Of a stretch of 64,000 nucleotides of DNA, positions 25,985-56,714 are shown piece after piece (the stretch's first letter is position 1; every line of letters begins with the position of its first letter). This DNA comes from Pelagibacteraceae bacterium AG-390-C22 (GTDB lineage Bacteria; Pseudomonadota; Alphaproteobacteria; Pelagibacterales; Pelagibacteraceae). The stretch covers positions 62,001 to 126,000 of the forward strand of contig QCGX01000002.1 of NCBI GenBank assembly GCA_003278125.1. The letters run 5' to 3'. Both the position numbers and the translations under genes were made by a program. The notes under the pieces are model-generated. The model was not told where the DNA came from and ran no database searches. It was given only the letters and a program-made list of their open reading frames with translations.

Positions 25985-26057
25985 TCTCAAATTAAAACCG
26001 GGTATTTGAACTATATTGTACACCCGACATACTGTCGAAGTACTAAAAAGGAGGAAA
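25985..26057 (+). promoter_or_regulatory. SAM-V riboswitch overlapping the metY ribosome binding site
   Basis: After the terminator comes CTCAAATTAAAACCGGGT. A stem joins CGGGT at 25999-26003 and ACCCG at 26022-26026. GTAC at 26018-26021 can pair with GTAC at 26040-26043, beside the conserved ACTAAAAAGGAGG. The ribosome binding site AAGGAGG lies in this last block, so ligand binding would hide it. SAM-V is known from marine bacteria, including SAR11, and resembles SAM-II in its core. An optional GACATACTGTC hairpin sits between the two parts. Confidence 0.8.
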
Positions 26058-52551: not shown

Positions 52552-52565
52552 TTTGAATAAACTTA

Positions 52566-52593
52566 TTGAATCTCTTTATAAGAGTTTTATATT
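52566..52593 (+). promoter_or_regulatory. Candidate ssrA promoter
   Basis: TTGAAT at 52566-52571 and TATATT at 52588-52593 are separated by 16 bp, giving a start near 52600, just before the first hairpin of the acceptor piece. Confidence 0.5.
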
Positions 52594-52773
52594 AATAGTG
52601 TTGGTTTTCCAACTATGACGATAAACGAATTTCGTAATAAACATTACGGACGTGGGGGCAGTACCCACCACCTCCACCAATTACAACTTACGGGGGTGAA
52701 TTAGGATCGACGGATGTCTAAAGGCTATTCTTTCGTACGAGATGGTTCCGACGTAACGGGCCAAATTACAAAT

Positions 52774-52803
52774 GCTAACGAAAGTTACGCACTTGCAGCT
52801 TAA
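52774..52803 (+). other. tmRNA tag reading frame (ANESYALAA)
   Basis: The codons GCT AAC GAA AGT TAC GCA CTT GCA GCT TAA follow the short unstructured region ACAAAT. The ALAA ending is the usual protease tag recognised by ClpXP. The resume codon is presumably GCT. Confidence 0.88.
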
Positions 52804-52832
52804 TTAACTTTGTTAATTAAGTAACGGGGTTT

Positions 52833-52860
52833 GGGGCACCTGGCAACAGAACGCCCCTTT
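52833..52860 (+). repeat. Repeat R1: 3' hairpin of ssrA coding piece
   Basis: GGGG and GCACCTGGCAAC followed by AGAACGCCCCTTT form a hairpin (GGGGC pairing with GCCCC) at the end of ssrA. This is the parent copy of three further copies at 53186, 54255 and 54748, all in the same orientation. It may also terminate ssrA transcription. Confidence 0.9.
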
Positions 52861-52873
52861 ATAAATAAAATAT

Positions 52874-53179
52874 ATGAGTGATAGGAGTGTTATAATAAGA
52901 GAATTTGAAAATGAAATTGCTTCATATTCAGATTATCTGAGTGAGACTTCAGATAAAATTATGTATCGGGAGTATATCACTCCAAAAAAAGGTAAAGAAA
53001 TTATACCTGGAATGGAATATGAAGAGTACGTTGATATTGATAAGAAAAATTTAAACGGTATAACTTTTGATCAAATTCATAATTTTCTCAAAGATACAAA
53101 ACCAGAGAACCGAATTGATAATCTAAAAAAATTCTTAAAATTTAATAATATTTCTTATGAAACAGGTCTATGGAATTAA
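52874..53179 (+). CDS. Orphan protein in segment 1 downstream of ssrA
   Basis: A 101-residue acidic protein (MSDRSVIIREFENEIASYSD...) with no motif or family I recognise. It starts 14 bp after R1 and ends 6 bp before R2, so it fills almost the entire 350-bp unit. There is no clear ribosome binding site before the ATG. The tight fit to the repeat borders is the main evidence that it is a carried gene. Confidence 0.55.
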   Translation: MSDRSVIIREFENEIASYSDYLSETSDKIMYREYITPKKGKEIIPGMEYEEYVDIDKKNLNGITFDQIHNFLKDTKPENRIDNLKKFLKFNNISYETGLWN

Positions 53180-53185
53180 TATATT

Positions 53186-53209
53186 GCACCTGGCAACAGA
53201 ACGCCCCTT
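53186..53209 (+). repeat. Repeat R2: copy of the ssrA 3' end
   Basis: Twenty-four bases identical to 52836-52859: GCACCTGGCAAC followed by AGAACGCCCCTT. The flank to the left is TATT rather than the GGG of R1, so the copied segment starts at GCACC. Segment 1 lies between R1 and R2. Confidence 0.93.
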
Positions 53210-53254
53210 CCAAAGACTCAAAACTCACGTTAAATAATAGTTTTTAAAAAAGTG

Positions 53255-53274
53255 GTCACACTGGTGTCACAGTG
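53255..53274. repeat. Short direct repeat GTCACACTG/GTCACAGTG, 11-bp period
   Basis: Two nine-base copies with one mismatch lie at 53255-53263 and 53266-53274, one helical turn apart. They sit 46 bp inside segment 2, in the 93-bp gap after R2, where I see no gene. A protein binding site is possible but unproven. Confidence 0.4.
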
Positions 53275-53302
53275 AGAAAAGAAATTTTAATGTGGGGAGT
53301 AT

Positions 53303-53815
53303 TCAGTATCCAAATATAGTTAGACTATCTAAATTAATATAGTTTTCTTTTAAAAAAAATAGTCCTAGTCTTTTTGAGCTATAATTAAAACAATTTGGGG
53401 TATGACTCACATCTTTTGGTATAACTAAAAATAAATGGTTCGCTTCTTTGCATATATGACACTTCCAAACATCTAATAAATCCATATTATTTTTTAAAGT
53501 TTTGCCTCTTTCAACTTCAAGTATGATGCCACTTTTTTTTAATTTTTTATAATAATCAGGTCTTAATTGAGAATTATAATTTTTGAACAAACCTTTTTTC
53601 TCACTTTCAAACCCTGCTTCTTTTAAATGACTTATAAATACATCTTGAATTTTCTGACTACTGTTGCCCATAGTGTGAATAGACTTCAATTTTTTAACTA
53701 TGTCTTTATTATTTAAATAAATAAAAAATTTTTTAGATATTAATTTAACAATTTTAAGTTCCTCTGGGTCTGCTTTTTTGTTAACAAATCTTTTAAATTC
53801 AATTTCTTTTGACAT
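53303..53815 (-). CDS. PD-(D/E)XK-nuclease-like orphan protein in segment 2
   Basis: A 170-residue protein. Residues near 85-107 read LRPDYYKKLKKSGIILEVER followed by GK, giving a PD then E-x-E-x-GK pattern like the core of PD-(D/E)XK nucleases, though the usual lysine follows an arginine-glycine. No full family match was recognised, so a nuclease role is a hypothesis. It overlaps the gene at 53799-54146 by 17 bp and the two read as a unit. The gene lies between R2 and R3. Confidence 0.6.
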   Translation of the reverse strand: MSKEIEFKRFVNKKADPEELKIVKLISKKFFIYLNNKDIVKKLKSIHTMGNSSQKIQDVFISHLKEAGFESEKKGLFKNYNSQLRPDYYKKLKKSGIILEVERGKTLKNNMDLLDVWKCHICKEANHLFLVIPKDVSHTPNCFNYSSKRLGLFFLKENYINLDSLTIFGY

Positions 53816-54146
53816 CTTGTGATACTTTAAAATTTAATTCAGCGCTTTCAAGATAATAGCATCTCCACCCAAAGTTCAATACTTTTATACCGTCATTTTT
53901 TGATAGGTGTATTTGAGGATATTCACCTTTATAAAAATGTTTTTGTCCTGAATCCGTATAAGTGATATCTCCGTTTTTTAAAACTTTATCTACTTTCCAT
54001 CCATCATAAACGTATCGATATAAATCTTTTTCATCTGAACATTTAACCCATTCACGGTCATGAGGTACAAAAATTAAAGCTAAAACAATTGCAATAAAAA
54101 ATGAAAGAAAAATTGAGAAGAAAAAGTACTTAAGTATTTTTATCAC
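53799..54146 (-). CDS. Membrane-anchored orphan protein in segment 2
   Basis: A 115-residue protein with one N-terminal hydrophobic anchor (residues 5-26) and a soluble, probably external part with conserved-looking aromatic positions (YVYDGWKVDKVLKNGDITYTD). I recognise no family. It precedes the nuclease-like gene, overlapping it by 17 bp, so the pair may be translated together. Confidence 0.55.
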   Translation of the reverse strand: MIKILKYFFFSIFLSFFIAIVLALIFVPHDREWVKCSDEKDLYRYVYDGWKVDKVLKNGDITYTDSGQKHFYKGEYPQIHLSKNDGIKVLNFGWRCYYLESAELNFKVSQDVKRN

Positions 54147-54182
54147 TAATTATTTTTAATTTTTAAGTTGGGCACAATTAGG

Positions 54183-54195
54183 GTCCAATTTGGAC
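54183..54195. repeat. Perfect 13-bp palindrome in segment 2
   Basis: GTCCAATTTGGAC is a perfect inverted repeat around one central T. It lies in the 108-bp gap between the anchored orphan and R3, where I see no gene. It could be an operator for the minus-strand pair. Confidence 0.4.
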
Positions 54196-54254
54196 ACAGC
54201 CGCCAAAGAAATTTGAGTATTTTAAACTCTAAAATTGTTGTATAACGTTAAAAG

Positions 54255-54286
54255 GTTAAGGGCACCTAGCAACAGAACGCCCCTTT
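54255..54286 (+). repeat. Repeat R3: copy of the ssrA 3' end
   Basis: GTTAAGGGCACCTAGCAAC and AGAACGCCCCTTT. It differs from R1 and R2 by one base (A for G in CACCTAGC) and shares the GTTAAGG left flank with R4 but not R1 or R2. Confidence 0.9.
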
Positions 54287-54317
54287 AAAAGTTGTTATTT
54301 ATATATTATAAGAAATT

Positions 54318-54752
54318 ATGAATTTTCAAACTTCAGTTAAAACATGTTTTAAAAAGTACGCTAAATTTGATGGGCGTGCATCGAGATCAGAATTTTGGTA
54401 TTTTTACTTATTTACTTATGGTTTATACGCAATATTAATAATCAGCGCTATAAACATTGCGTCTATATTTGGCTGGTTATTAGTTGGATTTTTTTTAGCT
54501 ACCTTTATTCCATTCTTAGCGGCAACTGCCAGAAGATTACATGACATTAATAAAAGTGGTTGGTTTCAAATACTTCCACTTCCATTTAGTTTTGTTGATA
54601 GATTATTAGAAAGATCACAACAAGATGTAGGTTTATCAATACTTTTTGGATTAATCACGATAGGATTGTATATATATTTGATTGTTCTGTATTGCACAGA
54701 AGGCGAAAAAAAGAAAAATAAATACGGTCAGCCAATAAAATTCAAGCGTTAA
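54318..54752 (+). CDS. DUF805 family membrane protein in segment 3
   Basis: A 144-residue protein with the DUF805 start FKKYAKFDGRASRSEFWYFYLF and the later ARRLHDINKSGWFQIL motif, with four hydrophobic segments. The family is common in bacteria and often horizontally moved; its function is not settled. It is about 30 bp after R3, preceded by a TATATATTATAAG promoter-like stretch, and it ends inside the left flank of R4. Confidence 0.88.
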   Translation: MNFQTSVKTCFKKYAKFDGRASRSEFWYFYLFTYGLYAILIISAINIASIFGWLLVGFFLATFIPFLAATARRLHDINKSGWFQILPLPFSFVDRLLERSQQDVGLSILFGLITIGLYIYLIVLYCTEGEKKKNKYGQPIKFKR

Positions 54753-54780
54753 GGGCACCTGGCAACAGAACGCCCCTTTT
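54748..54780 (+). repeat. Repeat R4: copy of the ssrA 3' end, 4 bp before selO
   Basis: GTTAAGGGCACCTGGCAAC and AGAACGCCCCTTTT. It marks the far end of the three-segment region. The stop codon of the DUF805 gene lies within its left flank (54750-54752), and the selO start codon follows at 54785. Confidence 0.92.
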
Positions 54781-54784
54781 AAAT

Positions 54785-56245
54785 ATGTTAAGAAATAAAA
54801 TTGGTTGGAAATTTGATAATACATACTCAAGCTTGTCAGAAAGTATGTTATCAAAATTAAATCCAACGCCTGTTAAAACTCCAGAATTAGTTCTTTTTAA
54901 TGAAAAATTATCAAAAGAAATTGATTTAGACTTTTCTCAGATAGATAACAAAGAATTAGCTTTAATTTTTTCAGGCAATCAATTGCCTAACGGATCAGAG
55001 TCAATAGCCCAAGCTTATGCAGGTCATCAGTTTGGACACTTTACAATTTTAGGAGATGGACGAGCTCTCATAATTGGAGAGCATTTAGATAGAAATAAAA
55101 ATCGTTATGATATTCAATTTAAAGGTTCAGGAAAAACTCCTTACTCTAGAAATGCTGATGGAAGAGCTGCTTTAGGTCCAATGCTTAGGGAGTATTTAAT
55201 TAGTGAAGCGATGCATAGTTTAAAAGTTCCAACTACAAGAAGTTTAGCGGTTATTAAAACTGGAGAGGATGTAATTCGTGAGTCAATTTTGGAAGGAGCA
55301 ATTTTGACTCGTGTCGCCTCTAGCCATATTAGAGTTGGTACTTTTCAGTATGCATTAATTTCTAAAAACAAAGATGACTTAAAAACTTTATTTGATTATA
55401 CTCTTAATCGTCATTACTCTGATTTAAAAAAATCAAAATTTCCCGCTACAGATCTTCTTAAAGTAGTTTTAGAAAAACAAATTGATTTAATTTGTAATTG
55501 GATGAGAATTGGATTTGTTCACGGAGTAATGAACACAGATAATATGACGATTTCAGGAGAAACTATTGACTATGGTCCTTGTGCGTTCATGGACAAATAT
55601 GATCCTGAGACTGTGTTTAGTTCAATAGATCATCAAAGAAGATATTCATATTTTAACCAACCTAGAATCGCTAAATGGAACTTAGAAAGATTTGCGGAGT
55701 CCTTGCTACCTTTAATAAATGATAATAGCAAAGTAGCAATAGAAGTTGCTACTGAAGTGTTAAAAGAATTTCCAAAAAAATATAAAAGCAAGTGGTTAGA
55801 AATGATGAAAAAAAAATTAGGTCTAGTTGGTGACGATCGCAATGATGAGCAATTAATAATTGAATTATTGTCGTGGATGCATAAAAACAAAGCTGATTAC
55901 ACAAATACTTTTTGTTTTTTAATGAACGAATATAAATGCAAAAAAGAAGTTTATAGTGAAAAACAGTTTATTTTATGGAAAAAAAAATGGGTAGATCGAA
56001 TTAAGTTAAACAATAACTCTCAAGAAAAATCATTTAAAATCATGCGTGAAGTAAATCCTCTAATTATTCCAAGGAATCATTTAGTAGAAGAGGCATTAAA
56101 GTATGCAACAGAAATGAATGATTTAAGTAAAGTTCAAAAATTAATAAAAGTTTTGCAAAATCCTTATGATGAAATTTCTACAACTTCTGCTTACCAATCA
56201 GTACCATTTTCCCATGAAAATTATATCACTTACTGTGGTACTTAA
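54785..56245 (+). CDS. selO: Protein adenylyltransferase SelO (YdiU)
   Basis: A 486-residue pseudokinase-fold protein that transfers AMP to proteins in the known family. Landmarks are GWKFDNTYSSLSESMLSKL at the start, YAGHQFGHFTILGDGRA near 76, GKTPYSRNADGRAALGPMLR near 115 and GVMNTDNMTISGETIDYGP near 240. The start is 4 bp from R4 with no obvious ribosome binding site. A promoter therefore must lie in the DUF805 gene or R4, or the RNA is nearly leaderless. E. coli SelO ends in a selenocysteine motif; here the C-terminus reads YITYCGT. Confidence 0.93.
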   Translation: MLRNKIGWKFDNTYSSLSESMLSKLNPTPVKTPELVLFNEKLSKEIDLDFSQIDNKELALIFSGNQLPNGSESIAQAYAGHQFGHFTILGDGRALIIGEHLDRNKNRYDIQFKGSGKTPYSRNADGRAALGPMLREYLISEAMHSLKVPTTRSLAVIKTGEDVIRESILEGAILTRVASSHIRVGTFQYALISKNKDDLKTLFDYTLNRHYSDLKKSKFPATDLLKVVLEKQIDLICNWMRIGFVHGVMNTDNMTISGETIDYGPCAFMDKYDPETVFSSIDHQRRYSYFNQPRIAKWNLERFAESLLPLINDNSKVAIEVATEVLKEFPKKYKSKWLEMMKKKLGLVGDDRNDEQLIIELLSWMHKNKADYTNTFCFLMNEYKCKKEVYSEKQFILWKKKWVDRIKLNNNSQEKSFKIMREVNPLIIPRNHLVEEALKYATEMNDLSKVQKLIKVLQNPYDEISTTSAYQSVPFSHENYITYCGT

Positions 56246-56262
56246 TAAAAAAATTATTAATT

Positions 56263-56343
56263 CTAAAATATATACTTGTCAGCTAAATAAAGAATAAGCC
56301 CAATACTAATTCCGGTTAATACCCAAAAATAATTTTCTTTCAT
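56263..56343 (-). CDS. Possible 26-residue single-helix membrane peptide
   Basis: The frame MKENYFWVLTGISIGLILYL-ADKYIF starts in a TAATG that overlaps the mazG stop codon and ends 17 bp before the selO stop in convergent orientation. It is hydrophobic with charged ends, like known small membrane proteins. The stop-start overlap suggests translational coupling with MazG. It is too short to prove without expression or conservation data. Confidence 0.5.
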   Translation of the reverse strand: MKENYFWVLTGISIGLILYLADKYIF

Positions 56344-56714
56344 TATGCAACAAATTTATTCAGATTTGGTTTAAAATAATCTGGTCCTTTCATAACTTTT
56401 CCTTGCTCATTATAAATTGGTTTTCCATCTGATCCTAACTTACTCATATTAGAATTTTGTACTTCCTCAAAACATTTATCCAAATTGATACCAAATGCGT
56501 GCCCTGCTCCATAAGTCACATAAAGTATATCCGTTAAAGCATCGGCAACTTCTTTTATGTCTTTTTTTTCTACTGCTTCTTTTAATTCTGATAATTCTTC
56601 TCTTATAAGATCAAATCTTAAGCCAATTATTTTATCATTTGGGAATCCAGCTTTGGTCCTTACTTCTTGACCGAAAGTATGCATGAATTTTTTTACACTT
56701 TCAAAGTTTGTCAT
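56343..56714 (-). CDS. mazG: MazG-like nucleotide pyrophosphohydrolase
   Basis: A 123-residue all-alpha protein with the EExxE...ExxD metal site in LIREELSELKEAVEKKDIKE and VADALTDILYVTYGAG near 35-70. The size and the C-terminal KPIYNEQGKVMKGPDYFKP resemble the phage-like MazG group that hydrolyses dNTPs or ppGpp-like nucleotides. It is divergent from fumC. Its exact nucleotide is unknown. Confidence 0.85.
   Translation of the reverse strand: MTNFESVKKFMHTFGQEVRTKAGFPNDKIIGLRFDLIREELSELKEAVEKKDIKEVADALTDILYVTYGAGHAFGINLDKCFEEVQNSNMSKLGSDGKPIYNEQGKVMKGPDYFKPNLNKFVA

Follow-up and report, generated by a model that had tools for sequence, protein, structure and literature searches.

An integron consists of intI, attI and attC cassettes. 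Few bacteria of the surface ocean are as abundant as SAR11, whose genomes are streamlined and whose gain of genes is poorly understood. We analysed a stretch of 64,000 nucleotides from the SAR11 bacterium Pelagibacteraceae bacterium AG-390-C22 (contig QCGX01000002.1, positions 62,001 to 126,000 of the forward strand; the window), in which the 3′ end of ssrA, the transfer-messenger RNA (tmRNA) gene, recurs downstream of that gene as a short core. We propose that integron-like cassette arrays are built in SAR11 with ssrA as their entry site, a reading to which we assign a probability of roughly 0.8. Comparison of sequences brought out variable, unidirectional arrays that grow on the side of ssrA and have their junctions at the core, as well as empty sites and the presence of the same cassettes at differing ranks in distant species.

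The ssrA islands of Dehalococcoides, too, consist of tandem segments that follow ssrA and lie between direct repeats of its 3′ end. The 31 islands described comprise 16 with a serine-integrase module and 15 without an integration module (PMC3146451), and strain VS carries 11 direct repeats of the ssrA 3′ end (PMC2764846, PMC3146451). Dehalococcoides belongs to another phylum, its vcrABC islands measure about 12 kb and insertion takes place at the T-loop, whereas SAR11 segments have a median length of 845 bp and the site is the 3′ hairpin of the coding piece of a permuted tmRNA. About half of the Dehalococcoides islands have a serine-integrase module, whereas only 2 of the 169 genus genomes of SAR11 contained PF00239, in one case within an array.

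Like an integron, the SAR11 array has small cassettes with one site each, a single direction, growth at the fixed end (inferred from close pairs) and decay with distance. Unlike an integron, it has no integrase beside it, its core keeps a constant sequence that an RNA gene also contains (as regards attC-type folding, the hairpin stem is complete in 44 of 204 non-ssrA copies), its open reading frames (ORFs) are mostly on the strand opposite to ssrA, and the candidate recombinase scores far below the cut-off for integron integrases.

In planktonic bacteria, 3′ ends of stable RNAs recur among variable genes in additive flexible genomic islands, as in Alteromonas (PMC5217437) and in Methylopumilus, where fGI-2 contains repeats of the last 20 bp of tRNA-Lys (PMC10872708). 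The SAR11 arrays resemble these islands and appear to gain and lose cassettes by site-directed recombination, as the definition of additive islands has it (PMC5217437). They differ in having tmRNA as the site, and sharing across species, direction of growth, empty sites and matched terminal repeats were tested here. In Acinetobacter, gene modules likewise lie between short sites, and XerC/D of the host acts on these dif modules in trans (PMC7399989); unlike these, the SAR11 core is not dif-like by eye, and Xer/dif is reported absent from P. ubique (PMC2731167). Cis-mobilizable and accretion elements retain attachment sites, have no recombinase and travel in trans or together with a neighbour; the SAR11 arrays have such sites and no tyrosine integrase in the fetched regions, and might be moved likewise. 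Tycheposons, too, are integrative elements of streamlined marine bacteria, placed at tRNA genes; they are reported to measure 4-200 kb and to carry a tyrosine recombinase, whereas SAR11 cassettes are mostly below 2 kb and none was found in the fetched regions. Wilhelm and colleagues reported that they did not find attC sites at SAR11 hypervariable regions, of which HVR2 includes an integrase gene (PMC2217521). No prior description of a SAR11 ssrA cassette array was found in the literature searched, a limited collection. Such an array in many species would offer a tractable source of flexible genome and a marker of strain differences, and would give a possible role to an unexplained core recombinase.

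Repeats of the ssrA 3′ end in the window

The locus is made up of the following features.

52562-52860, + strand: ssrA, permuted tmRNA gene, whose 3′ end is R1, the fixed site of the array (RF01849, 224.6 bits; ARAGORN 52584-52894)
52836-52857, + strand: core R1, inside ssrA (sequence match)
52858-53207, + strand: cassette 1, 350 bp, including core R2; no end repeats found
52874-53179, + strand: ORF of cassette 1, 101 aa, no Pfam match
53186-53207, + strand: core R2 (sequence match)
53208-54283, + strand: cassette 2, 1,076 bp, two-ORF unit, including core R3
53254-53271, + strand: direct repeat at the start of cassette 2, GTCACA twice, 11 bp apart (repeat test)
53303-53815 and 53799-54146, both - strand: ORFs of cassette 2 (170 and 115 aa)
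54170-54198, + strand: imperfect end repeats of cassette 2, GGGCACA, GGGTCCA and GGACACA, 11-bp pitch (seen by eye; they do not pass the strict exact-repeat test)
54262-54283, + strand: core R3, one mismatch (sequence match)
54284-54776, + strand: cassette 3, 493 bp, including core R4; no end repeats found
54318-54752, + strand: ORF of cassette 3, 144 aa, DUF805 type
54755-54776, + strand: core R4, the last recognised core (sequence match)
54785-56245, + strand: selO, variable content of the slot, with no recognised core to its right
56263-56343, - strand: 26-aa ORF; the slot has its constant right edge at the 3′ end of this ORF (edge alignment)
56343-56714, - strand: mazG-like gene, right flank; the name was assigned without a family search

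A sequence-only reading of the window had reported four same-orientation copies of the ssrA 3′ end, bounding segments of 350, 1,076 and 493 bp with an orphan gene, a two-gene unit and a DUF805 gene. All four were found on the same strand, and the segments hold the ORFs listed above; one of 48 members of the ORF batch containing those of the window matched DUF805, presumably the 144-aa ORF. None of the copies is expected by chance, as the core 23-mer with up to three mismatches did not occur in 100 dinucleotide shuffles. The core 22-mer reads GCACCTGGCAACAGAACGCCCC, with CCTA for CCTG in R3; R1, R2 and R4 agree over 24 bases, the last two being TT. A permuted alpha-type tmRNA gene with the tag ANESYALAA has R1 as the 3′ end of its coding piece. 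Cassettes 1 and 3 consist of a gene and a core only.

It had also been suggested that a hairpin recurs. The core does repeat, while the hairpin is not kept: its 5-bp stem is complete in all 101 ssrA copies of the arrays compared below but in only 44 of the 204 other copies, and R2 lacks most of the 5′ arm. The recurring item is thus a DNA core and not a hairpin. These counts bear on the possibility that the cores act as transcription terminators, or are retained as tmRNA-like hairpins because of their RNA structure. In ssrA the core indeed forms the 3′ hairpin of tmRNA, and it is often followed by a U-rich sequence; however, ordinary terminators at many transcript ends are not what was found, since the genome (27 contigs, 90% complete) has four copies in total (15-mer, at most one mismatch), all at the ssrA locus. 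Together with the mostly broken stems, this led us to reject the terminator explanation as very improbable. The GTTAAGG flank was confirmed before R3 and R4, but it does not mark these two as related, as it precedes 39 of the 204 non-ssrA cores over all compared arrays.

Variable arrays, empty sites and cassettes common to several species

The core 15-mer (at most one mismatch) was present in 340 of 397 genomes of the family, that of the window included, with up to eight copies per genome, and the reversed 15-mer was found nowhere in this search. RF01849 identified ssrA in 135 of the 169 genomes of the genus, in 131 above the cut-off. One hundred of these 131 regions, picked mainly for downstream contig room, formed the comparison set of 101 together with the window. 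All 100 fetched regions carry repeats in the direction of ssrA and no core in the opposite direction (up to three mismatches). The 101 arrays contain 305 cores, one to nine each, counting ssrA as the first repeat (up to four mismatches, or the 15-mer with one). Cores with at most three mismatches delimit 173 segments (10th to 90th percentile 263-2,007 bp) falling into 137 sequence clusters at an overlap of 60%, of which 114 are single; variable gene content between constant repeats, as foreseen from the window, was therefore evident. The segment sets used below comprise 204 in total, 203 of at least 60 bp, 201 of at least 100 bp and 162 of at least 350 bp. Among 261 cassette ORFs of at least 95 aa, 212 lie on the strand opposite to ssrA. 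Genes of the slot include restriction-modification genes, superoxide dismutase, methyltransferases and many proteins without a Pfam match. In several arrays, differing minus-strand cassette genes share an N-terminus like MKKLLAIVVLGLLLSGN, as if cassettes retained a common promoter and signal-peptide start and swapped the remainder. Among 385 genomes of the class, the 17-mer (one mismatch) occurred in 30, some of them SAR11, and no array was seen outside the family; one genome (G603) had two single copies on two contigs.

The flanks of the slot are conserved. To the left of ssrA lies thyX (85 of 101 regions) and to the right the mazG-like gene (91 of 101) and fumC (90 of 101), so that the usual layout is thyX-ssrA, the slot, then the 26-aa ORF, mazG and fumC. 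In contrast, selO, which had been taken as a constant flank, is present in 10 of 101 regions only and is hence variable content; the closest full-length relatives of the window's SelO are 80-88% identical (one 76%) and come from Pelagibacteraceae, Pelagibacterales or Pelagibacter genomes. Three regions (L167, L175 and L199) are true empty sites with the predicted single copy, in which the lone ssrA core directly meets the conserved 3′ end of the 26-aa ORF before mazG. The last core abuts this right edge in seven more regions, with a decayed core in one of them (L107).

Close relatives differ next to ssrA. In 20 pairs with fumC identities of at least 90%, shared content past the edge was mostly distal and differences were located beside ssrA. 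L117 has one cassette and L154 four (fumC 98.4%); the whole L117 stretch aligns to the distal end of L154 at 90.8%, and three cassettes lie between ssrA and the common part. L167 is empty and L109 has one 409-bp cassette (fumC 96.7%). In both pairs the alignment begins exactly at the first base after the core. L140 and L148 (97.5%) have the final 2.4 kb in common, from the last core onward, and in several further close pairs only the last few hundred bases are shared, the left end not being at a recognised core. The nearest relative compared with the window is L166 (fumC 91.1%). The two have the last core and selO in common, whereas of the other segments only short pieces of cassette ends are shared, so that the same segments are not present in all relatives. 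Core mismatches increase with rank from ssrA (Spearman 0.33, p=1.8e-6, n=204 non-ssrA cores), and in 51 arrays the first non-ssrA core had 0.84 mismatches versus 1.94 for the last (p=0.001). Such a loss of identity is expected if tmRNA function preserves only the first core.

Cassettes recur across species. Of 201 cassettes of at least 100 bp, 52 were found in other genomes over 80% of their length, giving 89 cross-genome pairs, many of which are copies of one 409-bp cassette present in 11 arrays at ranks 1, 2, 5 and 6. The cassette was more alike than fumC in 53 of 65 pairs, by at least 5 points in 31; for 150 random pairs, fumC identity had a median of 79.3 and a 95th percentile of 82.7. A cassette of L187 and L197 is 99.6% alike with fumC at 77.2%, and cassette 1 of the window matches one of L135 at 95.7% with fumC at 77.9%. 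L156 and L169 share a 1,330-bp cassette at 99.2% (fumC 81.8%), which stands fifth of six in one of them and first of five in the other. These data argue against homologous recombination between flanking core genes or short repeats, which could shuffle segments without any site-specific recombinase. Shared flanks and the roughly 100 bp common to cassette ends of the same class would provide substrates for it; however, near-identical cassettes stand at different ranks in genomes with fumC at 77-82%, junctions are exact at the 22-bp core and variation is concentrated beside ssrA. We regard this explanation as improbable.

Taken on sequence comparison, the sequence-only proposal of a cassette-like system that accumulates genes at ssrA is supported. 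Under the reading of ssrA as entry site, the core that forms the 3′ end of the ssrA coding piece would be the recombination partner of small cassettes with one core each, and the insertion would rebuild the tmRNA end. The newest cassette would then adjoin ssrA while older cassettes shift away and decay. The mobile form would be a circle, with the recombinase supplied in trans.

Cassette ends and the origin of the repeats

Many cassette ends can be grouped into classes whose members resemble each other, ahead of the core, over as much as about 100 bases that ssrA lacks; sorted by their last 30 bases, 84 of 173 ends fit none of three classes. The end stretches of classes hold short direct repeats with a pitch of 10-12 bp, the letters of which vary between cassettes. 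Such end repeats were detected in 56 of 162 cassettes of at least 350 bp, compared with 1.0% of shuffles and 2 of 162 mid-cassette stretches. In 32 of the 56 the end motif also occurred at the cassette's own start (2,000 permutations gave a mean of 7.3 and a maximum of 17). Counting one cassette per motif, 17 of 34 matched (mean 3.8, 0 of 5,000 permutations), and matches within classes were 15 of 23 for class A (0 of 5,000) and 10 of 17 for class B (2 of 5,000). The matched repeats resemble arm sites of tyrosine integrases, which is not proof of such a role. A 159-bp cassette of L120 and L135 (97.1% alike), with end repeats and no evident gene, resembles a minimal element. In hybrid cores the left half has diverged while AACAGAACGCCCC is constant, which suggests a crossover within AACAGAACGCCCC.

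The matched ends also speak for a second explanation, the accretion of defective islands. Here, integrases targeting ssrA would insert elements and later be lost, the repeats would be leftover attachment sites and movement would need a helper. Repeats matched at both ends, with cassette-specific letters, resemble the arm sites of several integrases, and the 15 of 31 Dehalococcoides islands without an integration module are explained in this way (PMC3146451). On the other hand, PF00589 had no match in the contig stretches of the 100 ssrA regions fetched, in agreement with the absence of an integrase noted for the window's array. In a second set, of 80 family genomes, it likewise had none on contigs that bear a core, among the core places listed. 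With the patterns tried, no phage attP emerged from IMG/VR or a phage collection. Accretion is a serious contender, held at a little under even odds.

Exact 23-, 17- and 16-mers of the core hit 8, 57 and 14 IMG/VR stretches. The eight 23-mer stretches contain tmRNA genes and were rejected as attP; the 17-mer matches were mostly tmRNA-type hairpins (by ARAGORN or by eye), a few looking like chance, and six new 16-mer matches, in GC-rich sequence, also look like chance. No PF00589 was found in the 37 of the 57 17-mer records that were searched, and two arm motifs matched no IMG/VR stretch. When the phage collection was searched for distant similarity, the 20 of 80 records listed showed weak matches of about 24 bases, with a best E of 4, and in none of them was the core matched. 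In IMG/VR, tmRNA-type genes are present on many contigs classed as viral (L202-L250); the 3′ hairpin loop of these genes is again the 17-mer, on stems that differ but match.

Candidate recombinases

A tyrosine recombinase elsewhere in such genomes, which the sequence-only reading had proposed to look for, was found, also in the genome of the window. PF00589 was detected in 120 of the 169 genus genomes, many of which are incomplete, with a single match in 110 of the 120 and an open frame of mostly 308-327 codons; in the second set of 80 family genomes it was detected in 68, with a single match in 56. The candidate protein has 318 aa (L005:1135-2091) and is encoded at a fixed place distant from the arrays. 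It is orthologous in 18 of 18 fetched loci (L279-L296); in 17 of these the left neighbour comes from one and the same family, and the genes on the right vary, while two loci fetched as longer integrases were not orthologous to it. Residues R158, R159, K185, H266, R269, H292 and Y301 are invariant, and we take them to be catalytic. The protein scored 77 bits against the XerD model (cut-off 330), also far below the cut-off of XerC, and 32 bits against the integron-integrase model (cut-off 265). A scan of 289 genomes of the class gave three SAR11 members at 58-100% identity, the best others reaching 36-40%. Judged by sequence, the recombinase is specific to SAR11 and is neither XerC nor XerD. Its profile had no match at E 1 in the 101 regions. 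A dif-like 22-mer had no match in the genome of the window (90% complete, three mismatches), and a divergent dif could escape a single pattern. Since a dif/Xer system is reported absent from P. ubique (PMC2731167, 2009), the SAR11 recombinase is the natural suspect.

Of single candidates for the engine, this recombinase acting in trans is the best, tentatively and at rather less than an even chance. A helper phage or island integrase that uses the end repeats is nearly as likely.

Domains encoded in the slot were surveyed by a Pfam scan of 198 representatives (at least 95 aa) of 253 ORF clusters, taken from cassettes and the stretch right of the last core. Among the matches listed was one resolvase domain (G257). 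The families listed were all those of sets A3 and A4, 25 of 66 for A1 and 25 of 45 for A2, so that a rare domain could be hidden; the genome searches with PF00589 and the profile search were independent of this listing.

Several observations weigh against ssrA as the entry site of a cassette array moved in this manner. Core-free sequence separates the last core from the right flank in 81 of the 91 regions with the mazG-like gene, selO being part of it in some, so many cassettes have lost their right core or arrived otherwise, decayed cores being one possible explanation; about 20 of the 81 are single-core regions and hence not empty sites. The cassette was no more alike than fumC in 12 of 65 pairs. 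The strict end-repeat test was failed by 106 of 162 cassettes, 24 of the 56 with end repeats have no matching start motif, and class D matched at chance level (4 of 11; 1,349 of 5,000 permutations). A serine recombinase (PF00239, 253-codon frame) lies inside one array, in the long first segment of L180 (G257). No core-like site (up to six mismatches) was found near the recombinase in any of 18 loci, and an arm-binding domain is not evident, the SAM-like domain of the protein having little sequence before it. Neither circles nor excision products were seen, and the sample has one genome per species, often incomplete.

Extra core copies away from the ssrA locus exist in some genomes (19 were looked at), a number of them at gene ends. 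One follows the 3′ end of tRNA-Thr (G124, L252), and tRNA-Leu genes lie near the extra copies of G018 (L251) and G315 (L253). G036 and G064 have the same two copies with the same spacing of 272 bp. Secondary sites seem to be used, since the ends of the 272-bp cassette of L251 nearly equal those of cassettes of L187 and L197. On the minus strand of L252 (2429-14219), a second array starts from the tRNA-Thr 3′ end, with segments of about 2.6, 8.5 and 0.6 kb. A more specific proposal, less likely than not, is that SAR11 has a cassette-capture system unlike integrons, in which ssrA would be the fixed site and a single tyrosine recombinase, retained by the family at a constant distant position despite the reported loss of Xer/dif, would move cassettes in trans, including to secondary sites such as the tRNA-Thr 3′ end.

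Elsewhere in the window, positions 25991-26056 (+ strand) match a SAM-V riboswitch aptamer with 71.3 bits.

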